Below, piece by piece: positions 25,639-31,644 of a DNA stretch of 64,000 nucleotides; position 1 is the first letter of the stretch; every line of letters begins with the position of its first letter. Source of the stretch: Xiphias gladius (lineage: Eukaryota; Chordata; Actinopteri; Istiophoriformes; Xiphiidae); NCBI RefSeq assembly GCF_016859285.1, contig NC_053413.1:16325501-16389500 (forward strand), given 5' to 3'. Position numbers and translations under genes: made by a program. Under the pieces are notes generated by a model. That model did not search any database and was not told the origin of the DNA. It saw only the letters and a program-made list of their open reading frames with translations.

Positions 25639-28600
25639 ATGGTGCTGTTAGATGAAAACACTGCATTCCTCTCAAACATACCTGTGCCACTGGATATAAT
25701 AGTGGCTGTGGTCTATTCTGTGTTCGGTGAGTAAAGTCTACAAAAATACAAACTTGTTTTGTCTTTTTTTTTTTTTAATTCCTTAACACACCAATAAAGA
25801 GTAAATAACACTGTCGATGCGATTTCTACTCGTTCTTCTCAAGTTGAAATGAATAATCACATGAAGCAAGACAGCTCACTGAAGCCTTGCAAGCATGTCT
25901 ACTTTTGTATTTTTGACTGTGTTATTGAAGGCACTTCCATCTCTATTTACTGGATAGAGGTATTGAGTCTATACCTGTATGTGTGCTTTAAAATAATCCT
26001 ATCCATCATGTCTTTCATCTCAGTAGCATTACTGGAGCATCCTTACATTTAATGTAGTTGTAGGCTGCGCACGGTTTGAAGGAAACCAAAAAGACACAAC
26101 TGTAATATTGGACTTATTTTGTGTGTGTCCTTGTTTACTGACACTGATTTTACAATAGCAATTTAAAGATGGTAATTTCATATTCAGAGTTGTTTTTTTT
26201 CCTAATAACTGGGTTTTGCTCTACTTCAAACTGCTCATTTGGCTCTAATTGAATTTTTTGCTGCTGTTGGAGTTTAATTGAATTTTCTGCTGCTGCTGGA
26301 GTTCTATTTAAGTCTATGGTAATTAGTAAAGTTACTAAAGGTTCATGTTCATTCATCTCATAATTACCACACAGGTATGAAAGTGGTATCTTCTCATCCA
26401 CAGTAATCTTCTGTAAGAAAACAAATGAGGGACTATCCCAAAATGTCGAACTATTGCTTTAAATATGCAGCATGATTCTGACAACTTGTTGAGACAGTTG
26501 CTGGAAAGCCGAAACCAGTTACCTGACACTTGCAACTACATTTTCCTGCAGGCGTATGTTCACTGTTTGGCAACAGCATGCTGCTGTATGTATCCTTCAA
26601 GAAAAAGCACCTGCTGAAACCCGCCGAGTACTTCATCATCAACCTAGCTGTTAGTGACTTGGGCCTGACTCTGTCCCTTTACCCTATGGCGATAACTTCG
26701 AGCTTCTACCACAGGTACTACACTTGGCACCTACTGTAGCATTAACAGGTAGCAGGGCGAAGACACAAAGACCAAGTGGTTGTTCTCACCAATGAAAAAT
26801 CAGATACTTTCCTGTGATACGCGCTTATAAGGAAGATTGTTTATAGATGTTGCTTTTAATACAGACTCTCTTTCAAATTTCATTGTTCGTTTACATATAC
26901 TGTAGGGTTGGTTAGCAGTATGATTGCCTGTGAGTTCACAGTTATGGAGTGTAATGCTCATGCTACTCTCGTCTTTTCCCTTTCTCACCCTCTCCCTCAT
27001 TGATCTTTCTTCTCTGTCTTTGCTTTGCACTGTCCTCTTTCCCTTTCTCACAACCCCTTGCCATCCCACGCAGGTGGCTGTATGGGAAAACAGTGTGCTC
27101 CATATACGCCTTTTGTGGTATGTTGTTTGGCATCTGCAGTCTGACCACCCTAACCCTGCTAAGCATGGTGTGCTTTGTGAAAGTATGTTATCCATTCTAT
27201 GGTAAGTCTTCAGAGAGGCTATTTTTGCCCACTGAAATGACGCTGGCTTAACCATCACATCCATAAGTGGTTGATCGTTGATTTATCCGTGGAAGAAAAA
27301 GGAATGATAATCCCTCTGTGAAGAACTGCACATTAGCCTTTCTTTGATGACTGCTAAGCCCAGGGGCAGCACTCAATAAGTATTACTTGTGATGTTGGTT
27401 AATGCAGTACAATGGGGTCTTATCTTTTACCATAAGAAAGTGTTTTCCCAGGCAGGGTCACAAAAGGGTACAGAATTTTCAATTAGAAACACTTTTATTC
27501 ATGAAAAAGAAAACGTATGTGAATTTTATGTGAATTATTTTTCAGCGACATAATCAATCATTGTAGATTTTCCTTTGAAATATTGAGCTACGAAAATATG
27601 TCGTATTTGCATTTATTGCATTCAATTTAAAGCCTCACTGTGGTACTGTATTTCACCTCCTGCATATTAACAGAAGCACTCACTTCATTATGACTTGTTG
27701 TCAGTCATATTGTCTACGTATATTAGGCTGACATAGCATCACTTGTCATTCAGTCACGTCTCCTTGATTCAAAGGCCTTATCTTTCACCCGTTGCTTCAT
27801 CACCCGTTGCTCATGCTCCACCTGAGCTAGCTTGACCGTTATGAACTCCAGATAATTACCCTATATTCCTTTAGCACTCCAGCCATATGCTGGTTTAGCA
27901 AGTCTAACCTTAATTCATCTCCTGGAGTGAGAATCCATATTCCTGCAACATGCCCATTCAAGGACCATCTTTCCTGGAGTCTGAAGGTATGGCATGTGTA
28001 CTGCCCATGAAGCCTTGGTAGTGAGAGCTCTTAACATCTGTATATTCAAGGACAGAACAGTGTATGGGGTCACATCGACGCTGCAACACTTTCATTATTT
28101 TCTTGAATAACATTGTGTAATGGTGAGGATTGACAATATGGCCACGGCTGCCTGTATCAACCGTTAAGTTGGGTTGTGCTTCCATTAGTTACGCATGCTG
28201 GCACACAGACTGATTATGTGGAGTAATGCACATATCCTTCTTTGATGATGACACATATTCCTGGCAGTACCCTTTAGGGAGAAGGGGAAACTCGTGGAAG
28301 ATTTCTTTGTGCCACAGGAAATCACCCAGTGTCCCGTTTTTTGCCTAGCACGATCACGATGCGCCCGGACTGGATACACTCACACATGAGCGTCCTCCCG
28401 TTCCTGCTGTACTGGTTTCCTTGCCTTGATTCCCTCCAGCTCTGGTCAGAGTGAAGGAGATATGTCGGAGCCTTACGTATGCCTCGTGTACCCAGTAGGC
28501 AGAAGGTTTCAACACAGACATAATAATGGCCAGCCATTCACAGCTGGTGTAAAGGCATCAACCTGACAAGCACGCCACCTTCATGTCGCAGTTGTCCAGC

Positions 28601-31600
28601 TGTGAAAAAGTATGCAAGATTTAAACTTTTCTCTCTTTGTTAAGGTCTTCATGCATCTACTTCTACTTCTACTACTTCTCTCAAGCAAGAGCAACACCAT
28701 GAATGCCTGTCTGTGCCGTTATCTTATCAATTAGCCCATCTCCCCCTATATTATGGCAGTCTGTTGCCCTACCTTCGAATGTGGCGGTTCAGAAAAGCTT
28801 TATACACTCCTGCCCTCAGATGTGGTCCGATGACAATATGTATGAACATTTTTGTGGAGTAAGTGCTTCTGAGAACAAATGAAGGGGGGCATTCACATGG
28901 TGAGACATCTCACTCATGTAACTCAGAAAACCAGGGTTATTGAATAACCTATAGATTTCCATCATGTAATTTAAACTTTCTTTTGGCAAATCAATACACA
29001 ACAAATATGCCAGAAACATCAAACTACATGAACAATAAAATATAAATCTGATCTGCTTTCACAGGAAACAGGTTTAACTCCGTTCACGGCCGTCTGCTGA
29101 TTGCCTGTGCTTGGGTCTATGCCCTGTTATTCGCCTGCTCCCCGCTGGCACACTGGGGGGAATATGGACCAGAGCCCTATGGCACCGCTTGTTGCATCGA
29201 CTGGCGCCTGTCCAATAAGCACGCCACAGCACGCTCCTATACTGTGGCACTGTTCATCTTCTGCTACATCCTTCCATGCTGTGTTATTGTAGCATCCTAC
29301 ACAGGTATTCTGGTCACGGTGCACGCGTCCCGCAAGACTGTGGAGCAACATACACTGAGACAGACACATATGAGCAGCATCCAGACAATTATTGTTAAGG
29401 TAAGAGTAAAGTCTGATAAATGATGCGAGAGATGCCATTTGGCTAATATACTATTCATTTCTTTTACACTTTATGCTATCTCAATTATATATGCCAACTT
29501 AGAGATAACATGTTCTAAGAATAATCCTTTTAAGCTCAACAGGAAGTCACTATTAAGACGCAATTTTGTGAACTTTGCTTTACTGCTTCCGTAGTCTCCT
29601 TCACTCTCTCAATCTCTTTTCACCTTTACCCGCTTCATGCCCTCATCATTACTGTCTCCGTAGAATCACACCCCAGAAGAGTATCATTAATCCACTTGCA
29701 CTCTTTCAACTATATGCAGGCTACACACAGCCACAGACAAAAATTGTGCTACGTCTGAAACTTAACTCAGAGCAAGACTCATTTATGTTTCATACCTGTG
29801 ATTACTGGTACAAATCTGATCACTTTCACATCCAATTTGTGTTAATCAGAATCTTTAAAACAAATGAAGGACAGAATTGGTTAGAACCATGTTGGCACCA
29901 CACGGTTCTACAGATAATGTGGTAGTGGGTTTTGGGGTTCAGGGCTAAACATCAAAGCAGATTCTTAGAGACCAGAGTCCTCTGTAGAGTTCCTCATTCC
30001 CCCATCTGTTGAAGAAACTGGCAGTGACCTCAATAGATCACCTAGCGGTACAGTTTCTTATTAGCAGAAATTGGCTCTGGTTGTACTGTGATGGATGATA
30101 AGCCGCTGCTGTCTTTGTTGACAAATGATCATCATTATATACTCTTCTCCATAAGAATACCTCTGACACTTTAAAAATGCCTTACTGTCAATGTAGAATC
30201 TGACTGGTACTGTTCAGTTTTTCAGGTTAAGAAGATAATGGCCCAAATTCAGTGAGCCACACCAGACAGTCATAGTTTGTATTTTTTCTTAACCTTTTAA
30301 AAGATAAGTCTTGTTTATATTCTATATTTGTCTCCTTGTCACTAAATCCAATGAAAGGACCAAAACCAACAATAAATTGGTCGTGTAGACAAGTATCACT
30401 TGTGTAGCCAAAACCTGGTAAAGCTTATACTGCTGTGCTGTGGGCCTCAATTTCTGTCAGAAAATGATCAAAAACACATAAATAAGCCACACTGTTGCAC
30501 TGAGTGAAACGTTCTGTCATTACCACGAACATGGGCACTGTAATTAATTTTGAATCAGTCTCACATATACCATCCTGCTGTTGTAAATACTTGCTAAAGC
30601 ATCAAATGTGTATTAATCCATGGCTGAAAATAGTCGCCAACAAAAACACCATTTACTCTAGTTTGACTAATGTTTGAATTTAAAAAAAAAAAAAAAAAAA
30701 ATCAGTGCCCAGATGGTTTAGCTACTTAGCATTTTTTTAAACGTGAAAGTATGTATTCATGTTCCACTTTTTAAGATGGCTGAGAGCCACAGACAGGCTG
30801 GGGAAGCCAGAATGAGGGACGTACTAACACATTGTTGGTTTTGGTTGTTTCATGGGATTTGTTGACAATAAGAAAAATATAGAATAACACCAGACATATC
30901 CTCTAAATACACTGTTCTGTGAAAAACACCAAAAGCTGATAAGTTTTTCTAAATGATGTATTTTTAAAATTAGACTTTTCTCCTCTGTGCTCTTTTTCCT
31001 GCAAGCTAAGTGTTGCTGTCTGCATCGGCTTCTTTGCGGCATGGAGTCCATATGCTGTGGTGTCCATGTGGGCTGCTTTTGGACACATTGAGAACATCCC
31101 TCCTCTGGCATTTGCCATGCCAGCAATGTTTGCCAAGTCTTCCACCATATACAACCCAATCATCTACCTAATGCTGAGGCCGAACTTCCGCAAGATGATT
31201 CCCAGGGACATGGGTACCCTATGCTACGCCTGTCTGAAGAGCTGCCACTGCTCCCAGGGCGCATCAAAGTCCTGCTCTAAGCCAGAGATCAGGGTCAGAC
31301 TTCGTACAACCCAAAGACAGACCAACCAATTCCCCTCATCCAACTCCTCCGCTCAACCTCCTATGGCAGCATTTAAGGATCACAATTGTGAGAAGTGCAA
31401 GGATGCTTTCGAATGTTTCAAACACTACCCTCAAATGTGTGGTGTCACTTACCCAGCTGCTAATGGAGACTCTTCTAAGGATCAAGACACACCAGTTCCC
31501 CAAATACATAAGCAGAAGACTCAAAGTGCGTGCCACAAAAAGTCTCTGCTGGCCACCATGTGTACAAAAAGGACTTCAGAAATAGACAACCTCCATATTA

Positions 31601-31644
31601 ATTTAGAGATGGTCCCAGGGCATGCAAAAGTAGCTTGGCCCTGA
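25639..31644 (+). CDS. opn7: Opn5-group non-visual opsin, probably Opn7 (Opn5L1) type
   Basis: This is a retinal-binding seven-helix GPCR. Five exons (25639-25726, 26552-26714, 27074-27201, 29065-29399, 31006-31644) join to 450 aa. The TM1 region starts near residue 18. Residues 58-66 read IINLAVSDL (TM2). The disulfide pair is Cys92/Cys169. Glu163 aligns with the Glu181 counterion and Tyr95 with position 113. TM6 has AAWSPY (249-254), TM7 has the Schiff-base Lys282 in FAKSSTIYNP, and NPIIY is at 288-292. The E/DRY position reads Val-Cys-Phe (116-118), followed by VKVCYP. Cys169 is followed by Cys170, the position-188 Cys that defines Opn5L1. The 150-residue tail is Cys-rich. The opsin call is secure; the Opn7/Opn5L1 subtype rests on Cys-Cys and CFVKVCYP and is less certain (Opn6/8/9 are alternatives). 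The intact frame argues for function. A 5' leader exon probably exists; no clear AATAAA follows the stop. Confidence 0.88.
26371..26463. mobile_element. Truncated copy of the same MITE family in opsin intron 1
   Basis: The segment CCCAAAATGTCGAACTATTG (26438-26457) matches the right terminus of the MITE in mep1b intron 13. The preceding 60 bases (AAGAAAACAAATGAGG and similar) match its subterminal part with small deletions. No left terminus is visible, so it is a 3' end remnant about 90 bases from the exon 2 acceptor at 26551. Confidence 0.65.

Follow-up and report, generated by a model that had tools for sequence, protein, structure and literature searches.

A gene of Xiphias gladius probably encodes a ray-finned-fish non-visual opsin of the Opn7/Opn5L1 type which, by analogy with chicken Opn5L1, would carry all-trans retinal in an active dark state, be switched off by light, and recover by itself through an adduct at Cys188 (rhodopsin numbering). 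The gene is situated in a stretch of 64 kb (C14:16325501-16389500, here called the window) of an assembly of 690.8 million bases, and the window contains no N.

Gene Structure and Key Residues

The opsin gene consists of five exons on the plus strand (25639-31644) and codes for a protein of 450 amino acids. It was modeled from splice sites and from tblastn matches obtained with an approximate human OPN5 query. The frame is open throughout and all four introns have GT...AG ends, in agreement with the intact frame described in the initial annotation. Exon 1 (25639..25726), with the start codon and the beginning of TM1, was placed by eye solely from its splice sites (AG before, GT after) and the frame into exon 2, and gave no similarity hit. 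Exon 2 (26552..26714; TM1-TM2) matches the query with 48% identity (E 3e-11), exon 3 (27074..27201; E 1.5e-7) comprises TM3 with Cys at position 110 and Tyr at position 113 of the alignment, and both have proper splice ends. A feature marked within exon 3 (27168..27176, plus strand) is based on tblastn, the splice model and the alignment. Exon 4 (29065..29399), delimited by its splice ends, covers TM4, extracellular loop 2, and TM5, and exon 5 (31006..31644), defined by splice ends as well as PDB and Pfam matches, covers TM6, TM7, a long tail, and the stop codon. When joined, exons 4 and 5 match 7tm_1 of Pfam (E 2.2e-22) and rhodopsins of the PDB, squid rhodopsin being the best among them (E 5e-25). 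With this rhodopsin-family seven-transmembrane core and Lys282 in TM7 (31135..31137), which aligns with position 296 and is the lysine of the retinal Schiff base, the product has the attributes of an animal opsin.

The register of individual residues was obtained from the splice model and an alignment with fragments of bovine and squid rhodopsin and with other opsins of the same genome, in which the window opsin possesses Tyr113, Phe167, Glu181, Cys188, and Lys296. Two adjacent cysteines, Cys169 and Cys170, are encoded by TGTTGC on the plus strand (29190..29195) and fall on positions 187, the disulfide cysteine, and 188, the proposed site of the retinal adduct, exactly where the initial annotation had placed them; Glu163 (29172..29174; position 181) and Lys282 had been located correctly as well. 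Glu163 is the likely counterion, a role presumed from the opsin family. Phe149 (29130..29132) occupies position 167, as reported for Opn5L1 and where Opn5m has Trp, and Tyr194 (29265..29267) occupies position 212, for which Phe is reported in Opn5L1.

The Cys-Cys pair had been proposed as the signature of a reverse photoreceptor. For the pair alone this proposal does not hold. Since 1.4 such pairs are expected by composition (25 cysteines in 450 residues) and two are seen (169-170 and 198-199), the occurrence of a pair is unremarkable, and because a gene at C11:13376095-13376232, which we take to be RGR-like, has adjacent cysteines one residue earlier, at 186-187 and followed by Thr188, a Cys-Cys pair by itself is no signature. 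What stands is its register: the signal is the placement of the pair on rhodopsin positions 187/188. An RGR-like identity of the window gene was rejected in view of this shift of the pair and of an identity of 24% over 133 columns.

Opsins with Cys188 Encoded in the Same Genome

With exon 4 as query, 44 matches were obtained in the genome at E values up to 10, and position 188 was inspected in the best 30 of these 44, the weakest of which may include some non-opsins. A letter could be assigned in 27 of the 30, namely Ser (11), Thr (5), Ala (3), Gly (3), Glu (2), and Cys (3). Besides the window gene, the Cys188 carriers are two genes at C18:23337794-23338126 and C18:17921166-17921498, with exon 4 identities to the window gene of 55 and 51%, respectively. 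The same three genes head the 60 matches of an exon 5 search, at 100, 71, and 63% identity, followed in score by seven matches of 38-51% identity. In their core, the three paralogues are 59-73% identical, the two C18 genes being 73% identical to each other.

At the place of the DRY motif in exon 3, the window gene has Val-Cys-Phe, the C18 gene at 23.34 Mb V-C-C, and the C18 gene at 17.92 Mb V-C-W. The DRY arginine is lost in all three Cys188 genes and is kept in the other ten rows that have a letter there (13 of 15 rows in the alignment table), i.e., nine genes of the same genome and the approximate human OPN5 sequence. This loss is the strongest addition to the evidence of the initial annotation. 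Cys188 occurs in none of the other 12 rows of the table. Phe is found at position 167 in all three Cys188 genes, the remaining 12 rows having Trp (11) or Cys (bovine rhodopsin), and all three have Tyr at position 212. The C18 gene at 17.92 Mb has Asn in place of Asp at position 190.

That Cys188 might be a chance neighbor of the disulfide cysteine in an ordinary bistable Opn5-like pigment could be argued from the richness in cysteine and from the displaced pair in the RGR-like gene. Such a coincidence is very improbable and was rejected because of the register of the pair and of what accompanies it, Cys188 being kept in three paralogues together with a lost DRY arginine and Phe167, and occurring in none of the 24 other lettered matches among the best 30 of 44.

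The replacement of DRY by V-C-F might also be taken as a sign of a pseudogene, or of a receptor whose signalling was lost with the arginine. This seems hardly credible, as the frame of five exons is intact with GT-AG introns, the Val-Cys pattern is kept in both paralogues, and chicken Opn5L1, in which VCC replaces DRY, is reported to activate G protein, with a peak at 510 nm (PMC12579811).

Other opsin sequences were noted in the course of the survey. Clusters of opsin exon matches at C21:25773866-25808372 and C21:15714178-15739538 consist of repeated similar copies and look visual-type by sequence; an in-frame TGA is recorded for one exon 4 match among them, that at C21:25773866. Two further opsins (C15:2049935-2050459 and C11:18958376-18958941), presumably Opn6-like, have Glu188 directly after the disulfide cysteine. 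A Lys at position 296 in an OPN4-like row was dismissed as an artefact of aligning a short fragment. An Opn5m2-like gene is also present in the genome, Opn5m2 having been reported in teleosts and holosteans only (PMC4864311). This gene, the opsin set as a whole, and contigs of chromosome size (22.6-33.9 Mb among the large ones with a displayed length) all point to a ray-finned fish.

Phylogenetic Position of the Cys188 Genes

A maximum likelihood tree was built from 15 rows (276 columns), among them fragments for the two rhodopsins and for several genes of the genome; in it, the three Cys188 genes form one clade (100/100). A separate clade (97/97) consists of human OPN5 (approximate letters), a C4 gene that retains DRY and has Thr188 and Trp167, and a C22 gene with Thr188. 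Two C4 genes with Ser188 adjoin the Cys188 clade, although this branch is not strongly supported (81/90). The initial annotation had asked for a phylogeny with the neuropsin families; over the present rows, none of them a named Opn5L1 or Opn7, the tree sets the Cys188 genes apart from Opn5m as one group, and their likeness to Opn5L1 and Opn7 is judged from published descriptions.

The window gene belongs to the same opsin group as the bistable UV neuropsin Opn5m, and introns occupy the same places ahead of TM4 and TM6 in the three Cys188 genes and in the Opn5m-like gene of the genome. However, this Opn5m-like gene has Trp167, Thr188, Leu212, and DRY, and is 38% identical to the window gene over the aligned core. 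An Opn5m identity of the window gene was therefore rejected, given its Phe167, Cys188, and Tyr212 and its place outside the Opn5m clade.

The two C4 genes with Ser188 (C4:18034619-18038940 and C4:18058645-18067586) lie about 20 kb apart and may be named Opn5L2/Opn8-like by inference from their sequences. At the DRY place they have V-R-L and V-R-Y, the Asp being lost and the Arg kept. With the window gene they share Val at position 134 as well as the nearest branch of the tree, but they differ from it by Ser188, Trp167, and the retained Arg135.

Comparison with Chicken Opn5L1

Chicken Opn5L1 is reported to be a Gi-coupled opsin that binds all-trans retinal, is shut off by light, and regenerates by itself, and its Cys188 adduct was demonstrated partly by mass spectrometry on YGEEPYGTACCIDWK, in which K is engineered; the 270-nm adduct product is abolished in C188T (PMC5871776). 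The initial annotation had described this adduct and the self-recovery in the same terms. Opn5L1 genes are reported from cartilaginous fish to sauropsids, with Cys188 completely conserved in the subgroup, and the loop peptide of the chicken protein is given as YGEEPYGTACCIDW (PMC5871776). Aligned with chicken YGEEPYGTACCIDWK, the corresponding peptide of the window opsin, YGPEPYGTACCIDW, shows 13 identities over the first 14 residues.

The residues reported for Opn5L1 are Phe/Tyr167, Cys188, and Phe212, and those for Opn5m Trp167, Thr188, and Leu212 (PMC8766551). The window opsin resembles chicken Opn5L1 in Cys188 (Cys170), in the loop motif GTACCIDW, in position 167 (Phe149; Phe or Tyr in Opn5L1), and in a replaced DRY arginine. 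It differs in V-C-F, which is V-C-C in chicken, and in position 212, where the descriptive though not defining Phe212 of Opn5L1 is replaced by Tyr194, as in both paralogues. Membership in Opn5L1/Opn7 is probable from the sequence, and the view of the initial annotation that the gene encodes the same type of pigment gains support from Phe167, V-C-F, the loop peptide, and the Cys188 clade (100/100). Tyr212 and a tree free of named Opn5L1 or Opn7 references are the main reservation.

How much weight Tyr212 deserves may be judged from published mutants. T188C alone confers on Opn5m exclusive binding of all-trans retinal and self-recovery, whereas W167F and L212F mainly keep binding 11-cis retinal (PMC8766551), which suggests that position 188 and not 212 sets the type. 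The mutant compared at position 212 is L212F.

Comparison with Opn7 and a Changed Chemistry

Zebrafish Opn7b is reported to be constitutively Gi/o-active and light-inactivated, with about 42% 'homology' to Opn5L1 (PMC8302595). This agrees with what the initial annotation had said of it, and the window gene is likened to Opn7b by description. In the main text of that paper the word 'cysteine' occurs 0 times, and earlier light-induced currents of the same Opn7b, attributed to Gq, are mentioned there (PMC8302595). Biphasic UV/visible absorbance is cited for Opn7d (PMC10729476). Elsewhere, the names Opsin 7a, Opsin 8, and Opsin 9 stand for Opn5L1a, Opn5L2, and Opn5m2, respectively, all described as UV-sensitive (PMC9596584); for Opn5L1 this label does not fit the 510-nm peak of the chicken protein. 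Spotted gar and Xenopus are listed with Opn5L1a and Opn5L1b (PMC12221356). As to expression, opn7b and opn7cd1 account for ~6 and ~9%, respectively, of non-visual opsin counts in Atlantic salmon brain (PMC13193417), and hardly any opn7 mRNA was detected in the Xenopus eye at the stage studied (PMC10547888).

The Gq-attributed currents of Opn7b, the biphasic absorbance of Opn7d, the UV label of Opn7a, and Tyr212 in all three genes speak against the preferred reading. An alternative would be an Opn7-clade neuropsin that has Cys188 but a changed chemistry, and which would also take up 11-cis retinal or be bistable and would not simply be switched off by light. The conflicting coupling of Opn7b (PMC8302595), the Opn7d absorbance (PMC10729476), and Tyr in place of Phe at position 212 would be in line with such a pigment. 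Moreover, bovine rhodopsin G188C recovers in the other direction, toward 11-cis retinal, with no clear 270-nm product reported (PMC8871353), so that Cys188 alone leaves the direction of recovery unfixed. Nevertheless, a changed chemistry seems unlikely in the light of Opn5m, which is moved to all-trans retinal and self-recovery by T188C alone and remains mainly an 11-cis binder with L212F or W167F (PMC8766551).

Proposed Photocycle

For an opsin of the Opn7/Opn5L1 type, every photochemical and signalling step is proposed here by analogy with chicken Opn5L1. All-trans retinal would be taken up on Lys282, and this dark form would be active and signal through Gi/o. Light would convert the retinal to the 11-cis form and turn the receptor off. 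Through its thiol, Cys170 (position 188) would then add to C11 of the retinal, the C11-C12 bond thereby becoming a single bond that can rotate, and breakage of the adduct in the trans form would bring back the active dark state with no second photon.

Genomic Neighborhood

Several genes around the opsin were recognized in the window. A PP2C domain gene, which we take to be PHLPP-like, is located at about 4.0-5.3 kb, and a piece upstream of the PP2C domain that looks like leucine-rich repeats gave no Pfam match. Pieces of meprin beta are found at 8.7-10.8 kb, RIPK1 is represented by a death domain at 36.9-37.2 kb and a kinase piece at 40.5-40.8 kb, and DUSP22 and IRF4 are located at 48.6-48.8 and 54.7-55.0 kb, respectively. 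Together, these genes (4009-55031) possibly constitute an old vertebrate linkage group, and the set may have counterparts on chromosome 2 of chicken and chromosome 6 of frog. Since X. laevis opn7a.L maps to chromosome 6L (PMC10547888), Opn7a/Opn5L1a might be the likelier branch; as a lead, the window gene is perhaps an Opn7a or Opn5L1a.

Significance

In a review from 2025, Opn5L1 is presented as the sole animal opsin for which control by a photocyclic reaction is known, and its physiological relevance is called unknown (PMC12579811). The window gene is otherwise an ordinary family member of an already known opsin type. The three Cys188 genes tie the work on light-off signalling by teleost Opn7 to the Cys188 mechanism. 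As a tentative idea, three reverse, self-resetting opsins (the window gene with V-C-F and those at C18:17.92 Mb with V-C-W and C18:23.34 Mb with V-C-C, each with Tyr212) may divide their job by recovery time, color, or coupling, and might serve as darkness timers on different scales. Three Cys188 genes in one fish provide a natural series of variants with which one could test what residues govern recovery time and coupling.
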